A stretch of DNA of 64,000 nt. Origin: Cellulophaga fucicola. Its GTDB lineage: Bacteria > Bacteroidota > Bacteroidia > Flavobacteriales > Flavobacteriaceae. Below the pieces are notes generated by a model. The model saw only the letters and a list, made by a program, of their open reading frames with translations, did no database searches and was not told the DNA's origin. The stretch lies in NCBI RefSeq assembly GCF_900119145.1, contig NZ_FPIY01000003.1:224299-288298 (forward strand), in the 5' to 3' direction. The translations under genes were made by a program, and so were the position numbers. Positions 4,035-38,905 of this stretch are shown piece by piece (the stretch's first letter is position 1; every line of letters starts with the position of its first letter).

Positions 4035-5087
4035 TTATTCTTTTCGTTTTAAACGCTGTTTTTTTAATGGATTTTGCGTTAACTCCTTATACTCTTCTCT
4101 GTTTTTAAAGATTTTTAGAGCTGTAAAAACTGCTTCTTTAAAAGAACTATGGTCTGCTTCTCCTTTACCTGCTATTTCATAAGCTGTTCCATGATCTGGA
4201 GATGTACGCACCTTACTTAATCCTGCTGTGTAATTTACTCCTTTGCCAAAAGACAACGTCTTAAATGGTATTAAACCTTGATCATGATATGCTGCTAAAA
4301 TTGCATCGAAACTAGAATATGCATCAGAGCCAAAGAAACTATCTGCAGAATAGGGCCCAAAAACCATTTTACCTTGGTTTTTTAATTCTGTTATTGTTGG
4401 CTTTAATACAACATCGTCCTCTTTACCAATAACACCATTGTCTCCACTATGCGGATTTATACCTAACAATGCTATTTTTGGTTTTTGTATTGCAAAATCT
4501 TCTTTTAAAGAACGTTCTATAGTAGCAACTTTTTCTTTTATAAGCTTAGCAGTAATAGCCTCCGCAACATCTTTTACAGCTATATGGTCTGTTAACAAGC
4601 CTACTTTTAGAGAACTTGTTACCATAAACATTAGACTTTTACCACCTAATTCTTTTGCTAAATAATCTGTATGCCCTGGGAAATTAAATTCTTCAGACTG
4701 TATGTTATTTTTATTTATTGGTGCTGTAACCAACACATCAATCTTATCTTCTTTTAATGCCTTTGTTGCTGCCTGCAAAGATTTTAACGCATACTTACCG
4801 CTTTCCTCAGTAGCTTCTCCAAATTTAGTTTTGGGTACTTCTTTCCATACATTAACTACATTAATTTTGCCATCTATTGCTTTTTCTGCATCTTGAATAC
4901 CATTGTAATTAATGTTTAACTTTAATTCATTCTTCTGAAATGAAATGGTCTTGTTTGATGCAAAAATAACTGGAGTACAAAAATCTAGCATTCGGTTGTC
5001 TTCAAAAGTCTTTAAAACAACTTCACAGCCAATTCCGTTTAAATCGCCTATAGAAATTCCTACCTTAATTTTTTTGCCTTCTTGCAT
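4035..5087 (-). CDS. pdxA: 4-hydroxythreonine-4-phosphate dehydrogenase
   Basis: Oxidises 4-phosphohydroxy-L-threonine in the DXP-dependent route to pyridoxal 5'-phosphate. The 350-residue protein has the family start (VGISIGDLNGIGCEVVLKTF) and the three metal-binding histidine contexts NFPGHTDYLAKELG, GINPHSGDNGVIG and AAYHDQGLIPFKTL. It is divergent from ribE, another cofactor gene, with only 55 bases between the two starts. A 167-base gap separates it from the DUF177 gene, which has its own promoter. Confidence 0.95.
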   Translation of the reverse strand: MQEGKKIKVGISIGDLNGIGCEVVLKTFEDNRMLDFCTPVIFASNKTISFQKNELKLNINYNGIQDAEKAIDGKINVVNVWKEVPKTKFGEATEESGKYALKSLQAATKALKEDKIDVLVTAPINKNNIQSEEFNFPGHTDYLAKELGGKSLMFMVTSSLKVGLLTDHIAVKDVAEAITAKLIKEKVATIERSLKEDFAIQKPKIALLGINPHSGDNGVIGKEDDVVLKPTITELKNQGKMVFGPYSADSFFGSDAYSSFDAILAAYHDQGLIPFKTLSFGKGVNYTAGLSKVRTSPDHGTAYEIAGKGEADHSSFKEAVFTALKIFKNREEYKELTQNPLKKQRLKRKE

Positions 5088-5119
5088 AATTCAACTGTAT
5101 AATGTCTAAATTTACACCG

Positions 5120-5127
5120 CAAAACTA
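5120..5127 (-). promoter_or_regulatory. Putative promoter core for pdxA
   Basis: TAGTTTTG on the minus strand fits the TAnnTTTG core and lies 33 bases upstream of the pdxA ATG. No TTG was found at the expected distance upstream, so support comes from the core element alone. Confidence 0.4.
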
Positions 5128-5142
5128 CTTAATTAAAACGAT

Positions 5143-5727
5143 ATGTTTACTGGGATTATAGAAACTTTAGGGAAAGTAACCGCATTACGTAAAGAAGACA
5201 GCAACCTACACATTACTGTAGAATCTACTTTAACACCAGAACTTAAGATAGACCAAAGTGTTGCTCACAATGGTGTATGCCTTACTGTTGTTGCTATTGA
5301 GAATAATACCTATACTGTTACCGCTATTGATGAAACATTGCAAAAAACAAGTCTTGGCTCTTTACAAGTAAATACTCCTGTGAATCTAGAACGCGCAATG
5401 ATTTTAGGTACAAGGTTAGACGGACACATTGTACAAGGCCACGTAGACCAAACAGGTATTTGTACGGCTATTGAAGAAAAAGATGGTAGTTCTGTTTTTA
5501 GTTTTGAATATGATACCGATTATAACAATGTAACTATTGAAAAAGGTTCTATTACTATAGACGGTACTAGCTTAACTGTTTTTAACTCTGGAAAAAATAC
5601 ATTTAGTGTAGCTATAATTCCGTATACGTTTGAAAACACTGTTTTTAAAACCTATAAAATTGGTACTATTGTTAACCTTGAGTTTGATGTTATTGGTAAA
5701 TACGTAGCTAAGCTAATTGCAAAATAA
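5143..5727 (+). CDS. ribE: Riboflavin synthase, alpha subunit
   Basis: Dismutates two 6,7-dimethyl-8-ribityllumazine molecules to riboflavin. The 194 residues start with the invariant MFTGIIE and contain two lumazine-binding beta-barrel repeats, the second beginning near residue 88 at LGTRLDGHIVQGHVDQTG; CLTVV and TSLTVF are the matching strands in the two halves. It is divergent from pdxA and ends one base before the stop of the convergent acyltransferase gene. Confidence 0.96.
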   Translation: MFTGIIETLGKVTALRKEDSNLHITVESTLTPELKIDQSVAHNGVCLTVVAIENNTYTVTAIDETLQKTSLGSLQVNTPVNLERAMILGTRLDGHIVQGHVDQTGICTAIEEKDGSSVFSFEYDTDYNNVTIEKGSITIDGTSLTVFNSGKNTFSVAIIPYTFENTVFKTYKIGTIVNLEFDVIGKYVAKLIAK

Positions 5728-5728
5728 A

Positions 5729-6814
5729 CTACACTTTTATAAAGATTTTTTTTCTGTAAAGCACATACGCTAGTAGCACATAAAATGTAACCACAGTTAG
5801 TGCATATAATAAGGATGATAATTTTAGCGCCATAAAATCTTGTACATACAGGTTTTTAAACAACCATCCATGCAGAGAGGTACCATCTACTTTTATAAGT
5901 CCAAAAAGCTTAGAAATAAAACTAGATAAGAAAAAAACAGTAATAGCATTAGCTCCTGCGTATTTAAAAACACCTCCAAACTTTTTGTTTTTTACATCAG
6001 AAAAATAATAAATTACTGATAGTATTATATTTGCCCAACCTGCTGTTACTAGTACAAAACTACTGCTCCATATAGCTTTATTTATAGGAAAATACAGATC
6101 CCAAATATAACCAAGAGCTAAAAGACCAATACCTAACCCAAAAAGAAGTCCTGTTTTATTATTTTTATTAGACTTTAACATTAAACCCGTAAATACACCA
6201 AACAAAGCCGATGCAATTGCAGGCAAAGTACTCAATACTCCTTCTGGGTCATAATCTGCTTTCCACATATGTATACCCAATACATTTAAATCTATGTAAT
6301 TCGCCCAATTGTGTGGTGCTCTATCAAAAGTTGGTTCCACACCGTTAATTGGCACAAAACCCATCCACAACCAATAACCAACTAAAATTGCTACACACAC
6401 TACTAGTAAAGCCTTCCAATGTATTTTCATAAATAGAATAGAGGAAAAGAAAAACACAACTCCAATACGCTGTAAAACACCAGGAAATCGTATGTTTTCA
6501 AAATCTTTAACAAAAGGAAAATTAAGCGTAAATGCACCTAGAAACAAGCCCAAACCTATCAATTTTAAAGACCTAATAGTAATTTTACGATAGGTACTAC
6601 CGCTTACCTCTCTATTGTGATATGCAAATACAATAGAAATACCTACGATAAATAAAAAGAACGGAAATACTAAATCTGTTGGTGTATAACCGTGCCAATC
6701 TGCGTGTAAAAAAGGAGCATATATGCTAGACCAAGTTCCAGGCGTATTAACCAAAATCATTAAAACAATGGTAATACCCCTGAATATGTCTACAGATATA
6801 ACTCTATTATTCAT
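5729..6814 (-). CDS. Integral-membrane acyltransferase, NagX/HGSNAT-like (COG4299, DUF5009)
   Basis: Polytopic membrane protein of the family that includes lysosomal heparan-alpha-glucosaminide N-acetyltransferase and bacterial NagX. Seen: 361 residues, about ten hydrophobic segments, and the N-terminal family signature SVDIFRGITIVLMILVN followed by HADWHGYTPTDLVFPFFLF. NagX proteins occur in N-acetylglucosamine utilisation loci, but no nag genes are visible here, so the substrate is open. Its ATG follows directly on the TAA of the upstream symporter gene, which indicates translational coupling in a two-gene operon. Confidence 0.8.
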   Translation of the reverse strand: MNNRVISVDIFRGITIVLMILVNTPGTWSSIYAPFLHADWHGYTPTDLVFPFFLFIVGISIVFAYHNREVSGSTYRKITIRSLKLIGLGLFLGAFTLNFPFVKDFENIRFPGVLQRIGVVFFFSSILFMKIHWKALLVVCVAILVGYWLWMGFVPINGVEPTFDRAPHNWANYIDLNVLGIHMWKADYDPEGVLSTLPAIASALFGVFTGLMLKSNKNNKTGLLFGLGIGLLALGYIWDLYFPINKAIWSSSFVLVTAGWANIILSVIYYFSDVKNKKFGGVFKYAGANAITVFFLSSFISKLFGLIKVDGTSLHGWLFKNLYVQDFMALKLSSLLYALTVVTFYVLLAYVLYRKKIFIKV

Positions 6815-8626
6815 TTACAAAATATCTGTTTTCATTCTATTCCAAGCTTTTATCAAGAATAAGCCGGCAACAATTGCAATACCCGTAAATATTAATCCTT
6901 TCATTGTTTCTCCATAAATCCAATATCCTGTTGCAAACATACAAGTGTATATTAACACGCAACCTAACACCATAGCACCAATACCAGATGGCACACTCCA
7001 TTTTTCATTAGGATTTACTATTTCTATATTATCTGCCTTAGCATCAACTACAACCTTTTCCCAACCTGGACCTCCTGGCTGAATTTTTTTATAAAAACTA
7101 TTTAAGACCTCTTTAGATTCTGGCTTAGTCATAAAAGTAGCCGCTACCCATATTATGGTTGTTACAAGCATTACAAACGGAATCTGGAACCAATCTGGGA
7201 AAACACCAGTTTCTGCAGCAAAAAGGTAATTACCTACAGGCGTAACTTTTAAAATTATAGATAATGCTCCAGATGCAAACATAGCAGCAATCTCTGTCCA
7301 TGCATTAATTCTCCACCAGAACCAACGTAAAATGAAAATTAAACCTGTACCAGCACCAAAAAGAAGTAACATATCAAAAACTTCCATTGCATTCTGCATT
7401 AACAAAGCCAAACAGGCACTTAATACCATTAATATCACAGTAGAAATTCTACCAACTGCTACTAATTTTTTTTCTGATGCATTAGGATTAACCTGTTGTT
7501 TATAAAAATCATACACTATATAAGAAGATCCCCAGTTAAGCTGTGTAGAAATAGTACTCATATAAGCCGCAATTAAAGATGCTAATACCAAACCTAAAAG
7601 TCCGCTTGGCAGTTTTGTCAACATTGCTGGGTATGCTAAATCGTGCCCCAACTTATCCGCAGCGATATTAGGAAAAGCTTCTGATATACTTGCAATATCT
7701 GGATATACAACTATAGACGCCAAAGCCACTAAAATCCAAGGCCAAGGACGTAATGCATAATGCATAATATTAAAAAAGAATGTTGCCCCTATTGCGTGGT
7801 TTGCATCTTTTGCTGCCAACATACGTTGCGCAATATAACCACCACCACCTGGCTCTGCTCCAGGATACCAAGAACTCCACCACTGTACAGCCAACGGTAT
7901 AACTAATAAAGTAATTACAGCTTTTGTATTGCTAAAATCTGGTAAAATAGAAAGCTTTCCTTTTACATTTTCGTGAGCAAGTAATTTTGTAACCCCACCT
8001 ACTTCTGGTAAGTTTACCAAGTAATAAGCTGCGCCTATAGCACCGCCCATTGCCACAAAGAACAATAGAAAATCTGTATAAACTACACCTTTAAACCCGC
8101 CTAAAGCACTAAAAGTAACTGTTATTAAACCTGCACTTACTACTGTTTGCCATGGTTCTAACCCTAGCATTATTCCGCCAATTTTTATAGCAGCCAATGT
8201 TACTGCAGACATTGTAATAACATTAAATATAACTCCTAGATATATGGCTCTAAATTTTCTTAAAAAACTAGCAGGCTTACCACCGTATCTTAATTCATAA
8301 AATTCTAAATCTGTATTTACATTAGACTTACGCCATAGTTTTGCATAAACAAAAACGGTTAGCATACCCGTAATTAAAAAAGCCCACCAAACCCAGTTAC
8401 CAGAAACACCATCTGTTCTAACAATATCTGTGACTAAATTAGGTGTGTCTGTAGAGAATGTTGTAGCTACCATGGAAAGCCCCAACAACCACCAAGGCAT
8501 TGTTCTTCCTGATAAAAAATACTCCGATGAACTTTTTCCTGATTTTTTAGAAACCACAATCCCAATAGCCAAAACAATTGTAAAAAAAACAATGATTAGA
8601 CTATAATCTAGTACACTTAATTCCAT
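6815..8626 (-). CDS. Sodium:solute symporter (SSS family)
   Basis: Secondary transporter that couples Na+ entry to solute uptake across the inner membrane. The 603-residue protein has roughly 13-14 hydrophobic segments, the family N-terminus (LDYSLIIVFF then SSEYFLSGRTMPWWLLGLSM) and the characteristic FSALGGFKGVVYTDFLLF segment near residue 175. A longer C-terminal tail with two further membrane segments follows. Coupled to the acyltransferase gene; a sugar or amino-sugar substrate is plausible from that pairing but cannot be read from sequence. Confidence 0.85.
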   Translation of the reverse strand: MELSVLDYSLIIVFFTIVLAIGIVVSKKSGKSSSEYFLSGRTMPWWLLGLSMVATTFSTDTPNLVTDIVRTDGVSGNWVWWAFLITGMLTVFVYAKLWRKSNVNTDLEFYELRYGGKPASFLRKFRAIYLGVIFNVITMSAVTLAAIKIGGIMLGLEPWQTVVSAGLITVTFSALGGFKGVVYTDFLLFFVAMGGAIGAAYYLVNLPEVGGVTKLLAHENVKGKLSILPDFSNTKAVITLLVIPLAVQWWSSWYPGAEPGGGGYIAQRMLAAKDANHAIGATFFFNIMHYALRPWPWILVALASIVVYPDIASISEAFPNIAADKLGHDLAYPAMLTKLPSGLLGLVLASLIAAYMSTISTQLNWGSSYIVYDFYKQQVNPNASEKKLVAVGRISTVILMVLSACLALLMQNAMEVFDMLLLFGAGTGLIFILRWFWWRINAWTEIAAMFASGALSIILKVTPVGNYLFAAETGVFPDWFQIPFVMLVTTIIWVAATFMTKPESKEVLNSFYKKIQPGGPGWEKVVVDAKADNIEIVNPNEKWSVPSGIGAMVLGCVLIYTCMFATGYWIYGETMKGLIFTGIAIVAGLFLIKAWNRMKTDIL

Positions 8627-33441: not shown

Positions 33442-34191
33442 TTATTCGTTTATAAAGGAACTTTTATTATTAGAATGTAAAGGCACATACTTCTCTACAA
33501 TATATGGTGTAATTGCCCTGAGTGTTTTACCCGTAACAGGGTGTAATCCAGGGCTAGAGAAGTACTCTATTTCATCATTATTTTTACAATACCACAATAA
33601 AGGCTTACTAGTTATTTCATCAAAAAAATTAGTAACCATAGTAACCTCAACTTTTTTAAAATTTTTCAATTTATTTTTATCATAAGGTAAAATCTGAGTT
33701 CTATATTCTGGTTGTAAATTAGTAGTACAGTCTATTAGCTGGTACTCCGTTTTTACCCAAACCATACATTTTTCTGTTTGGCTACCTGGTGCTTGACTAA
33801 AAAAATAAACAGCGGCTCCTAAAGCACAAACTAATAACATAATGATTATTAAAGCACTCCTTTTATTCACCTTATCATCTCTTGTTGAATTTAAAGAACC
33901 TGTTTTGCTTTCTTTCTGCGTTTTATTTGCTGGGTTAGCTTTTACATATTCTTTATAATTCTCATAACCTAAATATTTGCACAATAGGTTGACGCTAGAA
34001 TCATTAATATTCTTGTACTTAGACTCCTTATTACTTACATATTTATCATAAGCTCTCTCTAAAGTTTTAGCACTTAATGTTGTTTTATCTGCAATATGCA
34101 TAGCCAGTGCATACTTAGAATGAGAAGCACACTCTTCTTTTGCTTTTTTAAATGATTCACAAACAATCTCTTTTAAATAATTACGCTCCAT
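33442..34191 (-). CDS. Membrane-anchored protein with HTH-like N-terminal domain
   Basis: Not assigned to a named family. From the ATG at 34191 it is 249 residues: an all-helical N-terminal domain (LSAKTLERAYDKYV...SVNLLCKYLGYENYKEYV) similar in pattern to small HTH-like domains that head many Bacteroidetes membrane proteins, a basic linker, one membrane helix at about 115-135 (SALIIIMLLVCALGAAVYFF), and an extracytoplasmic domain of about 110 residues. A cytoplasmic DNA- or protein-binding head with an external sensor is possible. It is divergent from the lipopeptide gene, and the shared palindrome lies between them. Confidence 0.6.
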   Translation of the reverse strand: MERNYLKEIVCESFKKAKEECASHSKYALAMHIADKTTLSAKTLERAYDKYVSNKESKYKNINDSSVNLLCKYLGYENYKEYVKANPANKTQKESKTGSLNSTRDDKVNKRSALIIIMLLVCALGAAVYFFSQAPGSQTEKCMVWVKTEYQLIDCTTNLQPEYRTQILPYDKNKLKNFKKVEVTMVTNFFDEITSKPLLWYCKNNDEIEYFSSPGLHPVTGKTLRAITPYIVEKYVPLHSNNKSSFINE

Positions 34192-34196
34192 TAGTT

Positions 34197-34204
34197 CAAA
34201 AATA
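34197..34204 (-). promoter_or_regulatory. Putative promoter core next to the ATG of the HTH-like membrane protein
   Basis: TATTTTTG on the minus strand fits TAnnTTTG, with TTG 16 bases further upstream (34223-34221). The core ends 5 bases before the ATG, so transcription would start at or near the start codon (leaderless mRNA). Confidence 0.4.
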
Positions 34205-34389
34205 CAAATTATCAATTAGACAAAGTAAAGACACAACCTTCTACAAACGCTGTAAACACTGGTGTCTGTTAATTGTCTTATATAAGTCCCTAATGTGTCT
34301 ATAACAAAACTTTCTTAATCAATTTACTTTGCCCCAAGATTGGTTTACAGCTGTGTGTTGCTAACATAGCTATTCTAGAAAAATCTTTC

Positions 34390-34408
34390 TTACGGAAATC
34401 TGTAATGC
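34390..34408. promoter_or_regulatory. Shared near-palindrome, copy A
   Basis: TTACGGAAATCTGTAATGC, an imperfect inverted repeat identical at 17 of 19 bases to a site at 38349-38367. It lies in the divergent region between the membrane-anchored protein and the lipopeptide gene. The right arm TGTAATGC is repeated in reverse at 34449-34456 (GCATTACA). A binding site for the neighbouring LuxR-type response regulator is the simplest explanation; this is inference. Confidence 0.55.
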
Positions 34409-34427
34409 GGTTGGTGATTAGCCGGAC

Positions 34428-34469
34428 GAGAAGTAGTTAAAAACTGCTGCATTACAATTTCTACTTCTC
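34428..34469 (+). other. Long hairpin in the leader of the lipopeptide gene
   Basis: GAGAAGTAG (34428-34436) and CTACTTCTC (34461-34469) form a perfect 9-base stem around a 24-base loop. The stem starts 20 bases after the near-palindrome and lies about 110 bases upstream of the lipopeptide ATG. A second short hairpin, GGTTG/CAACC, follows at 34502-34514. Confidence 0.5.
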
Positions 34470-34578
34470 AAAAACAAAGGAGTAATCCTAACATTTTAAA
34501 GGGTTGTTGCAACCTAAAAAAACTTTCGAACAACGGATCGGACAGCAACGCCTATGTCTAAAAATTTTAAAAAAAATT

Positions 34579-34755
34579 ATGAAAAAAGTATTTATAGCCT
34601 TAACGGCACTAGTTCTTAATATGTCTATGTTTTCTTGCTCTGTAGATTCTGTTGACGCTAACGATGCATTGTATGAAACACAGGCAACAGAAGGTGATGA
34701 TGGAGAAGATATTCCTTTACCAGAACCACCTCCAATACCTAATACTGTTAACTAA
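34579..34755 (+). CDS. Small lipoprotein or pre-peptide with acidic, proline-rich tail
   Basis: 58 residues. MKKVFIALTALVL...MFSC is a lipoprotein signal with the lipobox cysteine at 20; the remaining 38 residues (SVDSVDANDALYETQ, then ATEGDDGEDIPLPEPPP...) are acidic and end in a proline-rich tail. In-frame ATG at 34504 is rejected because it would put 25 charged residues before the signal. A strong terminator follows at once, so it has its own short transcript with a long leader. It sits directly upstream of a TPR histidine kinase, so it may be the signal or a regulated output of that system; not a recognised family with certainty. Confidence 0.7.
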   Translation: MKKVFIALTALVLNMSMFSCSVDSVDANDALYETQATEGDDGEDIPLPEPPPIPNTVN

Positions 34756-34763
34756 AAAAAAAT

Positions 34764-34797
34764 GAGCTACACCTTTTGGTGTAGCTCTCTTTTTTTG
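34764..34797 (+). terminator. Strong intrinsic terminator after the lipopeptide gene
   Basis: GAGCTACACC TTTT GGTGTAGCTC forms a perfect 10-base stem followed by TCTTTTTTT. It ends 27 bases before the histidine kinase start, so the kinase depends on readthrough or a promoter inside this gap. Confidence 0.92.
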
Positions 34798-34823
34798 AAT
34801 ACATTTATGCAAAAAATTATATT

Positions 34824-36767
34824 TTGGGTAAGTTTTTTGTATTTATAGTAGTTCTCCTATTTTTTTCCTGTACTTCTAAACAAAACGCTACTACACCAAG
34901 TACAGCATCTAAATTAGATAGTGTTTCTTTTTATCTTAATAAGGCTGCCAACTCAAAACTTAAACCTATTAAAAAAATAGAGATTGTTAACAAAGCCTAT
35001 AACCTGGTAAAGTTTACAAATGATGAATTATACAATACTGTTTTAACTCAAAAAACACATACTCATCTTCTTCTACAACAATATGATAGTTTGCTGTTTT
35101 ACAGTAAACTGTTTATAAATCATTCTAAGTACACAAAAAACAAAACAAATCTAGGGTATATACATTATTTAAAGGCATACTATTTTTATACTATAGCTAA
35201 TAATATAGATAGTGCTTTTGTAAATTACAATTTATCTAAAAACCAATACAAAGCTGTTAATGATAGTAGTTGGATTGCTAAAAACTTAATTAGCATTAGT
35301 AATATTCAAAAAAATAAAAGTGATTTTTTTGGCAGTAAAGAAACCATTACAGAAGCATTACAATATTTAATCCCAGATAAAGATAGTATAACTGTTGCCC
35401 ATGCTTACAATAGTTTAGCTACAAACCACAGGAAATTATTAAATTTTAACGATGCTGAACTATACTATAAAAAAGCCATTAATTTAACTACAAACCCAAA
35501 CAGTGCACTTACGTACAAAAACAATTTAGCAGCCTCTTATATTAGTGCTAAAAAATATACTAAGGCAATTACTTTATTAACTGAGGTATATGAAAATGAT
35601 TTAACCCAAAATGATAAAAAACAAGCAGCAAGGGTACTAGATAACTTAGCCTATGCTAAATGGTTAAACGGCAGTACACATAATATAGAGGCAGACTTGC
35701 TAAACGCTTTACTACAAAGAACCAAACATAAAGATTTAAAGGGTAAAATTGCTAGTTACACTCATTTAGGCGAGTTTTATTTAGCTGAAAACCCTAAAAA
35801 AGCTTCTTCATATTTAGATTCGGTTATTACCTTATCTAAGGTGGTAAAAAACCCTAAAGCTGAAAAAGACGCACTAAGTTTTTTAATTAAAGTACACCCT
35901 AAAAATATAAATTATAGAGATCGGTATTTATTTATACAGGATAGTCTTTATAAAAATGATTTAAAAGTAAAAACTCAGTTTGCTAAGTATAAATATGATG
36001 ATGCCTTAAAAGAGGAATCTATTTTACGACTTGAAAAAGAAAAAGCTCAAAAGGAGTTAGAACTTACGCAACAACGTGCACAAAAGCAGGGATATAGTAT
36101 TGGCGTTATGGTTCTTTTACTTGGGTTAGGCTTTCTGTTTTACTTTTACACACAGCGCAGTAAAAGGCTAAAACAACAAAACAAATTAGACAAACTACAA
36201 GCTACTTTAGAAACCGAAGCACAACTGTCTAGAAAGCTGCATGACGATTTTGGAGCAAAAATAAATCACGCAATGGTATTAGTACAAAGTAATACAGATA
36301 CCAGTAAAATATTAGATTCTTTAGAAGACTTGTACAAACAAAGTAGAGACTTTTCTAGAGAAATAAACGATGTAGATACAAGTGAAAATTACAAAGACCA
36401 TTTATATGGTATGTTACAACAAAACAAGCCCCAAAGTACCAAACTAATTATTACAGGTGGTAAAGACATAGATTGGAGTGCGGTAAACAATATAAATAAA
36501 ACAGTATTGTATAAGGTACTTAGAGAACTAATAATAAACACTAAAAAGCACAGTAAGGCAACAGCAATAAAAATTAACTTTAATCAAACAGCTAAAATTT
36601 TAGAGGTTATTTGTTCTGATAATGGTATTGGAGCAGAAAAAAATGCTCTAAATACAAAAAATGGACTACTGAATACGGAAAAGCGTATTAAAGCCATAAA
36701 CGGAACAATTATATTTGAAACCGACAAACACAAAGGTTTTAAAACCTTAATTAAAATTCCTAATTAA
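34824..36767 (+). CDS. TPR-containing sensor histidine kinase (HisKA_3-like)
   Basis: 647 residues if the TTG at 34824 is used. N-terminal lipoprotein-like signal (LLFFSC), tetratricopeptide-like helical repeats from about 40 to 390, a coiled coil (LRLEKEKAQKELELTQQ), one membrane helix at about 422-445 (GVMVLLLGLGFLFYFYTQ), an H-box with the phospho-acceptor near residue 471 (LSRKLHDDFGAKINHAM) and an HATPase_c domain (LRELIINTKKHSK; CSDNGIGAE; GLLNTEKRI). TPR sensors often detect peptides or proteins. An ATG at 34807 opens a perfect-looking signal sequence in another frame that stops after 13 codons, so the true start may involve a T-run indel. The response regulator follows 14 bases downstream. 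Confidence 0.88.
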   Translation: MGKFFVFIVVLLFFSCTSKQNATTPSTASKLDSVSFYLNKAANSKLKPIKKIEIVNKAYNLVKFTNDELYNTVLTQKTHTHLLLQQYDSLLFYSKLFINHSKYTKNKTNLGYIHYLKAYYFYTIANNIDSAFVNYNLSKNQYKAVNDSSWIAKNLISISNIQKNKSDFFGSKETITEALQYLIPDKDSITVAHAYNSLATNHRKLLNFNDAELYYKKAINLTTNPNSALTYKNNLAASYISAKKYTKAITLLTEVYENDLTQNDKKQAARVLDNLAYAKWLNGSTHNIEADLLNALLQRTKHKDLKGKIASYTHLGEFYLAENPKKASSYLDSVITLSKVVKNPKAEKDALSFLIKVHPKNINYRDRYLFIQDSLYKNDLKVKTQFAKYKYDDALKEESILRLEKEKAQKELELTQQRAQKQGYSIGVMVLLLGLGFLFYFYTQRSKRLKQQNKLDKLQATLETEAQLSRKLHDDFGAKINHAMVLVQSNTDTSKILDSLEDLYKQSRDFSREINDVDTSENYKDHLYGMLQQNKPQSTKLIITGGKDIDWSAVNNINKTVLYKVLRELIINTKKHSKATAIKINFNQTAKILEVICSDNGIGAEKNALNTKNGLLNTEKRIKAINGTIIFETDKHKGFKTLIKIPN

Positions 36768-36781
36768 AAAATAGCTGTTTT

Positions 36782-37447
36782 ATGTTTACTAAAGTATTAA
36801 TAGCCGAAGATTTTCAGGACACCAATAATGGTATAGTAGCTGCTATAACAAAAAAACTATCTATTGCAGAAATTAAAGAAGAATTGTATTGTGACAAAGC
36901 TTACAACCGAGCAGTGGTTGCTTGTAATAACAATTCTCCTTTTCAGCTTTTAGTAACAGATTTACAGTTTAAAGAAGGTTATGCAGACCGTAAGCTTACC
37001 TCTGGCATAGAACTTATAAACGCCATAAAAAGAGTACAACCAAATATAAAGGTTATTGTAAACTCTATGGAAGATAACCCAACAAAAATAAAAGCCCTTT
37101 TTGAAGAGCAAAAAATAAATGGGTTTGTATGTAAAGGTAGAGAAAACCTTAACGAACTTATGATAGCTATACAAGATGTTTATGACGGCAACGACTACGT
37201 TTCTCCACAAATAAATATGAACGCTAACAATACAATTATTGAGTTAGATGATTATGATTTTCTTATTTTAAAAGAATTAGCTGAAGGTTTAAGTAAAAAA
37301 GAAATTGTACTAAAGTTTAAGCAAAATAATATCTCGCCTAGTAGCGAAAGCACAATAGACAAAAGAATTAGTAAATTGTTTGATGATTTTGAAGCAAAAA
37401 ACACAACGCACCTAATTGCTAAACTTACGAGAGACGGAATTATTTAA
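36782..37447 (+). CDS. LuxR/NarL-type response regulator, divergent C-terminus
   Basis: Partner of the upstream kinase. 221 residues: a receiver domain with acidic pocket AED (9-10), phospho-acceptor D60 in LLVTDLQF, and the conserved lysine in FVCKGREN near 118; then a helix-turn-helix (about 155-215, DFLILKELAEGLSKKEIVLKF ... STIDKRISKLFDDF) that is only loosely LuxR-like. The loop after D60 is longer than usual (KEGYADRKLTSG). Convergent with the nuclease gene, with an 11-base gap. Confidence 0.87.
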   Translation: MFTKVLIAEDFQDTNNGIVAAITKKLSIAEIKEELYCDKAYNRAVVACNNNSPFQLLVTDLQFKEGYADRKLTSGIELINAIKRVQPNIKVIVNSMEDNPTKIKALFEEQKINGFVCKGRENLNELMIAIQDVYDGNDYVSPQINMNANNTIIELDDYDFLILKELAEGLSKKEIVLKFKQNNISPSSESTIDKRISKLFDDFEAKNTTHLIAKLTRDGII

Positions 37448-37458
37448 TTCCTAAATTA

Positions 37459-38271
37459 CTAATTCATAGAAAACTTTAAAAAAACAGGAAGGTGATCTGA
37501 TAGGTTTCTTCCTGCTTCCAAATTATTACAGGCTTTAATAAAATCTAGAACATTACCATCTAACTTTTTTATTTGTTTAGAGTAAAAAATATTATCTATT
37601 GCGTGGTTTAAATAATTGCCATTAGGACAGGTTCTTTTTAATGTTGTTTTTTTATTGGAAAGAGTTGCATTGTACCCTCTATTTTTTAACTGATTAAAAA
37701 CTACTTCTTTTTCATTTACATTAAAATCTCCAGCAATTAGTACTGGTGTAGAAAACGAGTTTAACACAAACTTAGATAGCGCCTTAATCTCTGTTTCTGG
37801 GTCTCTATTATAGGGTCTAGAATGAAAATTAAGTACTGTAAACTTTTCTTTACCTAAGTAAAAGTCTAACAAAAAAGGTTCTCTATCTATTTCTATATCT
37901 AGCTCCTTTACCAGCCGTCCTCTATTTTTAATTTTAATATGTTTTGTTTTCCAAATAAAGGCGTAACGCTCTGTTACATATTTAGAGCTATTAGTAGGGT
38001 TGCTAATTACATAGTCCCACTTACTACCTTTTCTATTTAAAATATCAGATAATTTAGCCACCGCTTGTGCACCTCCGTAGCCAGCAACAACCTCTTGTAT
38101 GGCAATAATATCATAAGTTTTAACAATCTCTGCTATACTATTTAACTCCTCGCTACTCTTTGTTTTTCCAAAATCTCTAATGTTCCAAGAAACTAATTTA
38201 ACTTCTTCCGTTTGCGAGAATACAGTTAATCTAATTGTAACAAAGAATAAAAACAATAACTTTTTTAACAT
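37459..38271 (-). CDS. Secreted endonuclease/exonuclease/phosphatase-family nuclease
   Basis: DNase I-like enzyme. 270 residues with signal peptide (to about 19, TVFSQ). Motifs: LVSWNIRDFG, IIAIQEV (metal-binding Glu), FHSRPYN, LIAGDFNVNE and the C-terminal LSDHLPVFLKF with the catalytic His. Family members are extracellular DNases or phosphodiesterases; export suggests DNA or nucleotide scavenging. The start region shares a divergent intergenic gap with the DUF1508 gene that contains copy B of the palindrome. Confidence 0.87.
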   Translation of the reverse strand: MLKKLLFLFFVTIRLTVFSQTEEVKLVSWNIRDFGKTKSSEELNSIAEIVKTYDIIAIQEVVAGYGGAQAVAKLSDILNRKGSKWDYVISNPTNSSKYVTERYAFIWKTKHIKIKNRGRLVKELDIEIDREPFLLDFYLGKEKFTVLNFHSRPYNRDPETEIKALSKFVLNSFSTPVLIAGDFNVNEKEVVFNQLKNRGYNATLSNKKTTLKRTCPNGNYLNHAIDNIFYSKQIKKLDGNVLDFIKACNNLEAGRNLSDHLPVFLKFSMN

Positions 38272-38346
38272 CTATAATTTATTTTAAATAGCTAAAGTAT
38301 AACAAAAGTCTGCTAACCTTTTACGTAAATACGTATTTAGCATAGC

Positions 38347-38366
38347 CATTACGGATATCCGTAATG
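38347..38366. promoter_or_regulatory. Shared palindrome, copy B (perfect)
   Basis: CATTACGGATATCCGTAATG is a perfect 20-base palindrome. Bases 38349-38367 match copy A (34390-34408) at 17 of 19 positions. It lies between the nuclease (minus) and DUF1508 (plus) genes. A TAnnTTTG-type core (TAAATTTG, 38386-38393) starts 20 bases to the right, so a bound protein could control transcription toward DUF1508. Confidence 0.6.
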
Positions 38367-38430
38367 CTTTATTATTTTATGGTTCTAAATTTGCTTTGTT
38401 ATTACTAACATATATAACACAAATGGTATT

Positions 38431-38487
38431 AGGTCTGCTTGCTAAAAAGGTAATGGGGGAAGTTATCCAATTTAGCAAGTAAGACCT
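38431..38487 (+). other. Long hairpin upstream of the DUF1508 gene
   Basis: CTTGCTAAA/TTTAGCAAG (9 pairs) continues, after a small bulge (G against TA), into AGGTCT/AGACCT (6 pairs). The loop is 24 bases (38447-38470), the same length as in the hairpin downstream of copy A. No T-run follows, so it is not a typical terminator; a structured 5' leader is likely. Confidence 0.55.
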
Positions 38488-38557
38488 CTACTTTACGCAA
38501 TTCTCTAATATAGTGTAAGTTATTAGTACAAATCTATATTCTCTACCCACAACTACT

Positions 38558-38905
38558 ATGACTAAGCCTTACTACGAAGTAAAAAAGACTATTACTAATA
38601 CGTTTTACTTTAACCTTAAAACAAGTGAGGATGAAATAATATTATATGGCGAAACTTGCAAAACTCTTAAACTATGCAAGCAGCAAATAATTTTTATTAA
38701 ACAAAATGCATACGATTATGACTGCTACCAAAGTAAAATAACAAAAAATAATAAGCACTATTTTAATCTTTTGCAAAAAGAAGATATTATACTTGGACAA
38801 AGTAATAAGTACAACACTTTAGAAGAAAAAGAACTAGCTATAGCCGCCGTAATGTTATATGCTACTGTTGCTACAATTGATTTTTTAAATGAGAGTGATG
38901 AGTAA
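38558..38905 (+). CDS. DUF1508 (YegP-like) small protein
   Basis: 115 residues with two short alpha-beta repeats of the YegP kind: TFYFNLKTSEDEIILYGETCKT followed by QIIFIKQNA, and HYFNLLQKEDIILGQSNKYNT followed by a helix (EKELAIAAVML). The usual glycines of DUF1508 are partly replaced, so the match is by pattern. No signal peptide, so cytoplasmic. The role of the family is unknown. Preceded by the palindrome and hairpin described for this region. Confidence 0.55.
   Translation: MTKPYYEVKKTITNTFYFNLKTSEDEIILYGETCKTLKLCKQQIIFIKQNAYDYDCYQSKITKNNKHYFNLLQKEDIILGQSNKYNTLEEKELAIAAVMLYATVATIDFLNESDE

Follow-up and report, generated by a model that had tools for sequence, protein, structure and literature searches.

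The stretch of DNA analysed here, referred to as the window, comprises 64,000 nt of Cellulophaga fucicola (contig NZ_FPIY01000003.1, positions 224,299 to 288,298). Its part from position 33,442 to 38,905 carries the genes for a small acidic lipopeptide, a sensor histidine kinase with tetratricopeptide repeats (TPR) and a response regulator (RR), together with a divergently oriented gene for a helix-turn-helix (HTH)-like membrane protein (Table 1). These four genes form a cassette that recurs in Flavobacteriaceae. In a preliminary description of this DNA, lipopeptide, kinase and RR had been regarded as a signalling block with the same palindrome on both flanks. All of the parts named there, including the two palindromes, were found where it had placed them; the start of the HTH-like protein was corrected to 34191, and two elements had been overlooked, an intrinsic terminator behind the lipopeptide gene and a structured leader RNA in front of it.

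Table 1. Features of the cassette region, with positions counted from the first letter of the window.
Feature	Position	Strand	Remarks
HTH-like membrane protein, 249 aa	33442-34191	-	helical N-terminal domain, one predicted transmembrane (TM) helix, conserved extracytoplasmic domain with GLHPxTGKTLxxITxYI motif
Predicted -7-like promoter box for the lipopeptide transcript, TTTACTTTG	34323-34331	+	transcription start predicted near 34337
5' hairpin domain of the leader RNA	34336-34387	+	outer AAGATT/AATCTT, inner AGCTGTGT/ACATAGCT; pairing kept despite sequence change
-7-like box toward the HTH-like gene, TATGTTAG	34361-34368	-	21 nt from left operator; one-position departure from TAnnTTTG
Left operator (putative), HTH-like side, TTACGGAAATCTGTAA	34390-34405		overlaps helix P1 of the leader RNA
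Leader RNA core, 176 nt	34390-34565	+	modelled by R1/R2; about 240 nt with 5' domain
Helix P1	34395-34410 with 34447-34461	+	covariation
Helix P2, 5' strand GAGAAGTA	34428-34435 with 34462-34469	+	interleaved with P1, forming a pseudoknot
Hairpin P3, GGAGTAATCC	34479-34488	+	covariation
Helix P4	34503-34509 with 34543-34549	+	covariation
Helix P5	34525-34529 with 34538-34542	+	covariation
Lipopeptide, 58 aa	34579-34755	+	small, acidic, proline-rich
Intrinsic terminator, lipopeptide/kinase gap	34764-34796	+	34764-34787 with T-run
Sensor histidine kinase	34824-36767	+	lipobox-like Cys; TPR superhelix at about residues 27-357; long helix carrying the TM segment; DHp and ATPase domains
RR	36782-37447	+	receiver and putative, divergent LuxR-type output domain
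Right operator (putative), TTACGGATATCCGTAA	38349-38364		21 nt from DUF1508 -7 box
-7 box of the DUF1508 gene, TAAATTTG	38386-38393	+	21 nt from right operator
DUF1508 protein, 115 aa	38558-38905	+	predicted RR target; DUF1508 genes in relatives carry their own module

As a conserved unit whose gene order is kept in relatives, the signalling block proved to be real. The blocks of G015, G003, G016, G001, G017 and G018 showed the order of divergent HTH-like gene, dyad-like site, lipopeptide, kinase and RR. The association of lipopeptide and kinase was also borne out by a count in 80 fetched loci (L058 to L137), in which a lipobox peptide of 40-110 aa was accepted at most 200 nt upstream. Such a peptide precedes 47 of 73 kinases compared to 1 of 371 other open reading frames of at least 250 aa, and this one is the displaced lipopeptide of L136.

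The signal peptide of the lipopeptide ends with FSC, and as read from the sequences the combination of signal peptide and lipobox cysteine identifies a lipoprotein, the mature part of which carries a net charge of -10. The Pfam family LPAM_1 reached an E value of 0.72 only, which is below the cut-off. Behind the RNA, 96 distinct relatives of 47-65 aa were collected, which were chosen by a loose Cys pattern, so that their lipobox is partly circular. All of them are net negative with a median of -9; for L090 the mature sequence was truncated too early in this count, and the charge is negative either way. The relatives share the signal peptide, often a DSIAETDxLYETQATEGDDG-like stretch and a variable acidic or proline-rich tail, which in some is preceded by CC. 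Within 75 nt of the lipopeptide stop codon, a terminator-like hairpin was found in 75 of 106 relatives. The genome of the window has a second TPR kinase-RR pair (L058:5581-8000, contig C8), the lipopeptide of which repeats a 17-aa unit ATDDDEVEAPKGSGGAI 3.9 times in its tail (51-nt unit); the leader RNA model gave no match at this pair. In L107, the lipopeptide just upstream of the kinase (4929-6878) has a tail with internal Cys-containing repeats (units like EEVRKCEIEYxDDHxNCPL).

The aligned regions upstream of the lipopeptide genes showed complementary blocks that change together. A first covariance model, built from eight close leaders with helix P2 omitted, gave 50 matches at E<=1 in 76 sources, and some of its weak matches were outside the leader or on the opposite strand (e.g. 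L086, plus strand, E 6.5e-4). For 37 of those 76 sources and a stricter threshold, 36 matches were obtained, all at the leader. The second model, built from these 36 matches, found 48 matches in 81 sources at E<0.05. In the 80 named RR loci it matched in 59, always on the strand of the RR, and gave no match within the flank in the other 21; the genera of the 59 loci include Cellulophaga, Arenibacter, Flavivirga, Hyunsoonleella, Zobellia, Maribacter, Flagellimonas, Croceitalea, Leeuwenhoekiella and Aquimarina. None of the 4227 Rfam families matched the leader core in the window at E values up to 1, and in 10 further loci searched at the gathering threshold the only hit was a tRNA.

In the 36 leaders, 32 of the 40 base pairs changed on both sides, with 173 double-change cells compared to 48.4 +- 6.7 after shuffling and 24-38 in slid controls. 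The 59 leaders of named genomes gave a similar result (31 of 40 pairs; 176 cells compared to 53.9 +- 5.7 shuffled and 36-60 slid). For related sequences the shuffle counts are not probabilities; the slid controls preserve the relatedness and agree. The alignments were fitted to P1 and P3-P5 and therefore favour these helices. Helix P2, which lies outside the models, showed 24 double changes compared to 9.2 +- 3.9 shuffled in the 36 leaders and 29 compared to 14.3 +- 2.7 in the 59. An alignment-free scan of 53 leader regions returned a best interleaved helix pair containing the P2 core in 35; the score of the window was reached by 0 of 30 shuffles, and several relatives do not beat their own shuffles. 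Folding of single sequences gave a z of -2.0 for the window, with 8 of 200 shuffles doing as well, and of -4.1 for L120. The number of G.U pairs (196) compared to A.C mismatches (114) favours the lipopeptide strand. The 5' hairpin domain is less well supported than the core, and a part of it is promoter DNA as well: 78 of 107 leaders score above their own single mononucleotide shuffle, and an example of the kept pairing is AGCTAGTT/AACTAGCT in L064.

A conserved, covarying structure at a near-fixed place before one gene would place the RNA among the cis leaders (riboswitch-like class). The end of the model sits at a short, near-constant distance before the lipopeptide ATG, mostly 8-15 nt, and the RNA most likely controls the translation of the lipopeptide in cis. 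At the other end, a TTTG is located at -62 relative to the start of the model in the window; in many relatives, though not all, its place is -60 to -63. Two further elements were considered and dropped: a conserved upstream start codon near the 3' end, the TGT core of which is not constant, and a switch by alternative GGACA/UGUCC pairing near the start codon, which was seen by eye in some leaders, is absent in others (L072, L090) and is not claimed.

The RNA was found by 16 hits in 14 of 60 relatives; 15 of these stand before a kinase of the family, and one (G028) belongs to a split form with displaced lipopeptide and HTH-like gene. In 299 genomes of the family, 68 hits were obtained in 62 genomes, 61 of which belong to the 116 genomes positive for the RR at E 1e-30 (p 9e-30); the exception, G152, is 64% complete. 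A comparison of places by eye put 63 of the 68 hits at most 5 kb from an RR homologue. Among the remaining five, those of G178, G070 and G152 have an adjacent kinase match, and those of G275 and G028 are away from a kinase. In a phylum sample of 247 genomes, the 16 genomes with RNA were all of the same family. The surveys of RNA and operator include the genomes that supplied the model and the pattern, and the whole-genome RNA searches over 40 genomes used stricter filters, absences being less certain than presences. The lipopeptide follows the RNA in 106 of 107 loci, which are two overlapping sets pooled and comprise 91 distinct leaders; in eight further loci (L250-L257), the lipopeptide was found in seven (not L257) and a kinase match in all eight. 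A divergent relative of the HTH-like protein was detected by tblastn beside 44 of 48 RNA hits, with the entry of the window set by hand. The AlphaFold model of the HTH-like protein (pLDDT 87) gave no PDB match at E<=0.001. Besides these regular forms, the RNA matched weakly (E 0.004) in L070 of the order-level relative G040, where an HTH-like gene and three TTACGGG-type dyads are present, with no clear lipopeptide. L078 and L080 are decayed cassettes of same-genus genomes, with a 26-aa kinase match beside a shortened RR match in G011 and only DUF1508 and operator in G002; DUF1508 is retained in G011 as well.

The kinase starts with a hydrophobic stretch containing Cys16, followed by the TPR part, a long helix with a hydrophobic stretch and the kinase core, and its AlphaFold model (pLDDT 83) showed the corresponding TPR superhelix, long helix with TM and core. 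The TPR domain is accordingly predicted to be periplasmic. In Pfam, TPR_12 was above the cut-off (1.1e-8) and HATPase_c below it (1.6e-4, 22.5 bits, cut-off 26.4). In 25 aligned relatives, the lipobox-like C16 is conserved to at least 90% and H473 is invariant. The start codon of the kinase is uncertain (window 34808-34824), with a TTG at 34824 and a nearby out-of-frame ATG at 34808. The RR matched Response_reg below the cut-off (1e-5, 26.1 bits, cut-off 30.2), which was also found in 13 of 13 relatives, and D60 is invariant in 13 aligned RRs. GerE gave no match in the RR of the window and E<=0.1 in 5 of 13 relatives (best 5.5e-4). Based on the HATPase_c and Response_reg matches, the invariant H473 and D60 and the DesK-like fold, the pair is a two-component system, probably of the NarL/FixJ type, comprising a DHp/ATPase kinase core and a receiver with phosphoacceptor Asp.

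The top PDB matches of the kinase model were TPR domains of LGN/Pins complexed with NuMA, Inscuteable and Frmpd4, with DesK next in rank. The sensor part of the kinase in the window carries a net charge of +18 compared to -10 for the mature lipopeptide, and it is positive in 23 of the 25 kinases listed, none of which is of the CC class. Lipopeptides with CC-type tails are paired with kinases of 541-556 aa (15 of 15), those with other tails with kinases of 603-692 aa (30 of 30). From linkage, fold and charge, a direct binding of the lipopeptide to the TPR part appears plausible.

The two palindromes are the only sites in the 64 kb with at most 4 mismatches to ATTACGGATATCCGTAAT. In the 3.9-Mb genome, TTACGGANATCCGTAA with at most 2 mismatches gave 17 forward matches compared to 7 for the reversed control; considering this count together with motif, spacing and gene order kept in relatives, the palindrome pair exceeds chance. 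The exact dyad TTACRGAWWTCYGTAA is present in 11 of 60 relatives. These are all 8 relatives that have a close RR orthologue, and G002, G011 and G022 (in the latter 278 bp from an RR homologue); the reversed control is present in 2 of 60. According to the part of PMC9723704 consulted, TAnnTTTG is the -7 box of flavobacterial sigma-A. An operator-promoter module was thus defined as TTACRGA-NN-TCYGTAA plus a TAnnTTTG box with a spacing of 18-24 nt allowed. It occurs in 31 of the 299 family genomes, 30 of which are RR-positive (Fisher p 7e-13; reversed control 1 of 299). As the preliminary description had presupposed, RR and palindrome co-occur and the palindrome is not scattered through genomes without the RR, with G175 as the one exception; the pattern was derived from loci of some of the same surveyed genomes, so that this test is not fully independent. 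In G175, the sole module without an RR match at E 1e-30 is that of L245. Since the surveyed genomes include those that suggested the pattern, the fixed spacing is the more independent point: it is exactly 21 nt at 40 of 41 module sites, and in the fetched loci at 101 of 102 distinct sites. Altogether, the association of RR and palindrome is well supported.

The geometry also indicates which genes the palindromes serve. In 91 distinct leaders, with a dyad counted from 13 of 16 positions, 64 carry a dyad, and a -7-like box stands at exactly 21 nt in 49 and at 20-22 nt in 56 of these; none of the 27 leaders without dyad showed such a box. Because this box stands 21 nt off on the HTH-like side, the left dyad most likely serves the HTH-like membrane gene as its operator. 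On the lipopeptide side of the left dyad there is no -7 box at 21 nt, and the lipopeptide has its own promoter-like box upstream and a structured leader in which the palindrome is embedded. The previously assumed control of the lipopeptide by the left palindrome is therefore not supported and was rejected on grounds of geometry. The right palindrome is predicted to drive DUF1508 by the 21-nt rule. As for the regulon that had been proposed, the HTH-like protein and DUF1508 fit the predicted geometry, and the lipopeptide and the secreted nuclease of the window are unsupported; in the genome of the window, the DUF1508 side was the only place where the composite pattern was found, and none was found at the nuclease. 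In relatives, the nuclease does carry the module (L065; L083 of G028), and dyads precede EEP or DUF1508 where these genes sit elsewhere (L063, L064, L065). The genes behind module sites include DUF1508, EEP nuclease (L065, L083), HNH (L121), HSDR_N-like (L088 and others), DUF4177-like and small Cys-rich proteins. Sigma-70-like genes follow the module in nine Aquimarina loci (L207, L208, L209, L210, L219, L221, L223, L226, L233), of which L210 was checked by Pfam (Sigma70_r2). Pfam was run on eight representative genes behind module sites, three of which had no match.

The conserved cassette, the RR-linked operator with fixed promoter geometry and the structured RNA without Rfam match are supported by these data. 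It is proposed, with about even chances, that the RNA-controlled lipopeptide acts on the kinase and that the RR switches on the HTH-like protein and DUF1508 as well as nucleases in relatives. The transcript, about 460 nt long, would start near 34337 and comprise the pseudoknotted leader of about 240 nt, the 58-aa lipopeptide and the terminator; kinase and RR would result from read-through or from a promoter of their own. The leader would set the translation of the lipopeptide in cis, and the peptide would be exported and lipidated. Its acidic proline-rich tail may fill the groove of the basic periplasmic TPR superhelix and thereby set the kinase activity. The phosphorylated RR would then bind TTACRGA-NN-TCYGTAA and activate promoters with a -7 box 21 nt downstream; motif, geometry and co-occurrence were computed, while binding and activation are what they suggest. 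In this genome, the putative targets are the HTH-like membrane protein and DUF1508, in relatives secreted and other nucleases, small proteins and a sigma-factor-like gene in Aquimarina. Since the left operator lies inside the lipopeptide leader, RR binding there might in addition exert feedback on the lipopeptide. From sequence and models we infer the cis control by the RNA, the binding of lipopeptide and TPR domain and the direction of regulation.

Several observations weigh against this proposal. For 26 of 73 kinases, no lipopeptide was found in the 200 nt upstream (it is about 1.1 kb away in L072-L075, and none was seen in many others), which indicates that the kinase-RR pair can exist without it. 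The RNA was found in only 61 of the 116 RR-positive genomes at the threshold used and in 26 of the 31 operator genomes, and in G028 and G275 the module of RNA, lipopeptide and HTH-like gene, which there also carries EEP, is separated from kinase and RR. For L094 the sensor charge is 0 and for L092 it is -4, its measurement covers kinases outside the CC class, and acidic mature ends are common among bacterial lipoproteins. The match of tail and kinase length may result from shared ancestry only. Concerning the RNA, the double changes in P2 fall mostly in two of ten pairs, a slid control (-2) came near P2 in covariation score in the 59 leaders (0.168 compared to 0.180), not in the cells paired, and the strand evidence is moderate. 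Finally, the lipopeptide promoter box of the window is one base short of TAnnTTTG, and the mismatch of TATGTTAG at one place weakens the assignment of the left operator to the HTH-like gene.

Among the other explanations, the lipopeptide might be a structural or quality-control lipoprotein, the missorting or shortage of which is read by the TPR kinase, with the RNA setting its level and no message passed between cells. NlpE-CpxA and RcsF work in this manner. The lipobox-bearing kinase would share a compartment with the lipopeptide, which is always acidic and short with a variable tail, and the terminator after its gene in 75 of 106 loci suggests a high level relative to the kinase. The targets (nucleases, DUF1508, HNH, HSDR_N-like, small Cys-rich proteins) are, however, atypical for envelope repair, and this explanation is regarded as rather unlikely. 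Improbable is a peptide pheromone, in which the tail would be cleaved off and released and would report population density or identity to the TPR kinase. It would fit the tandem copies in the tail of the own-genome paralogue and the joint change of tail class and kinase class; against it, the shared ATEGDDG core would make the peptides of many species alike, the tail may stay anchored, and no linked protease or exporter was noticed, none having been searched for. Quite improbable as well is an independent or trans-acting RNA, with the lipopeptide as passenger or dual-function product and the kinase pair as a co-evolved neighbour. The separate location of RNA, lipopeptide and HTH-like gene in G028 and G275 would agree with it, as would the left operator sequence, which is part of the RNA and resembles operators at other genes. 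This resemblance is, however, explained by the promoter geometry of the HTH-like gene, 66 of the 68 RNA hits in the family lie at most 5 kb from an RR homologue or next to a kinase, and the model ends before the lipopeptide ATG as expected for a cis leader. An attenuation of the kinase by a leader peptide stalling at polyproline was rejected, as many tails lack a proline run though the RNA persists.

A doubtful but wider possibility is a family-wide peptide signalling in Bacteroidota. Here, a lipidated acidic peptide, the synthesis of which is gated by a new class of pseudoknotted leader, would be read by a periplasmic TPR kinase, and the HTH-like protein as the constant companion of the RNA would complete the circuit: it would sense the peptide outside and, inside, act on the RNA or its DNA. 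The system, the RNA of which is present in roughly one in five of the Flavobacteriaceae genomes sampled (62 of 299), combines a tiny lipoprotein mRNA with a structured RNA of a size and covariation that are unusual for it. With the covariance model, the lipopeptide motif and the 21-nt rule for the operator, it can be found and directly tested, e.g. in Cellulophaga, Zobellia, Maribacter and Aquimarina. In the portions of the published literature covered, no description of the leader RNA, the lipopeptide family or the cassette was found, nor a peptide signalling of such kind for Flavobacteriaceae. A member of the leader RNA could be among the 64 structured 5' regions of F. psychrophilum reported in the consulted part of PMC9723704.

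Like Flavo-1 and 6S-flavo, which the portion seen of PMC2864571 gives as examples of Bacteroidetes RNAs in Rfam, the leader is a conserved structured RNA of Bacteroidetes, from which it differs in that its core matches no Rfam family. The kinase core shares its fold with DesK-DesR (PDB 5iuj and others), and the predicted superhelix shares its shape with LGN/Pins (PDB 6hc2, 3sf4, 4wne), which is eukaryotic and about 16% identical over the aligned part; the claim of homology is limited to the fold. The sensor of DesK is a membrane sensor and not a TPR domain as in the cassette, LGN binds extended partner segments in its groove, and in NlpE-CpxA an exported accessory protein partners the kinase. 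HbpS-SenS-SenR is, from the section consulted of PMC4991794, a three-component system with an exported accessory protein. Both resemble the cassette in the exported partner of kinase and regulator; in the cassette, this partner is an acidic lipopeptide of 47-65 aa behind a structured RNA, the sensor is a TPR domain and the operator stands 21 nt from the -7 box. The receptors of RRNPP quorum sensing are TPR proteins. This quorum sensing of Firmicutes combines propeptide and receptor (PMC10075063, in the part consulted), and the cassette resembles it in that a small gene for an exported peptide adjoins the gene of a TPR receptor. In contrast to the cytoplasmic receptors of RRNPP, the TPR domain of the cassette is predicted to be periplasmic and is fused to a histidine kinase, and the peptide is a lipoprotein, preceded by a leader RNA, in a Gram-negative host of the Bacteroidota.

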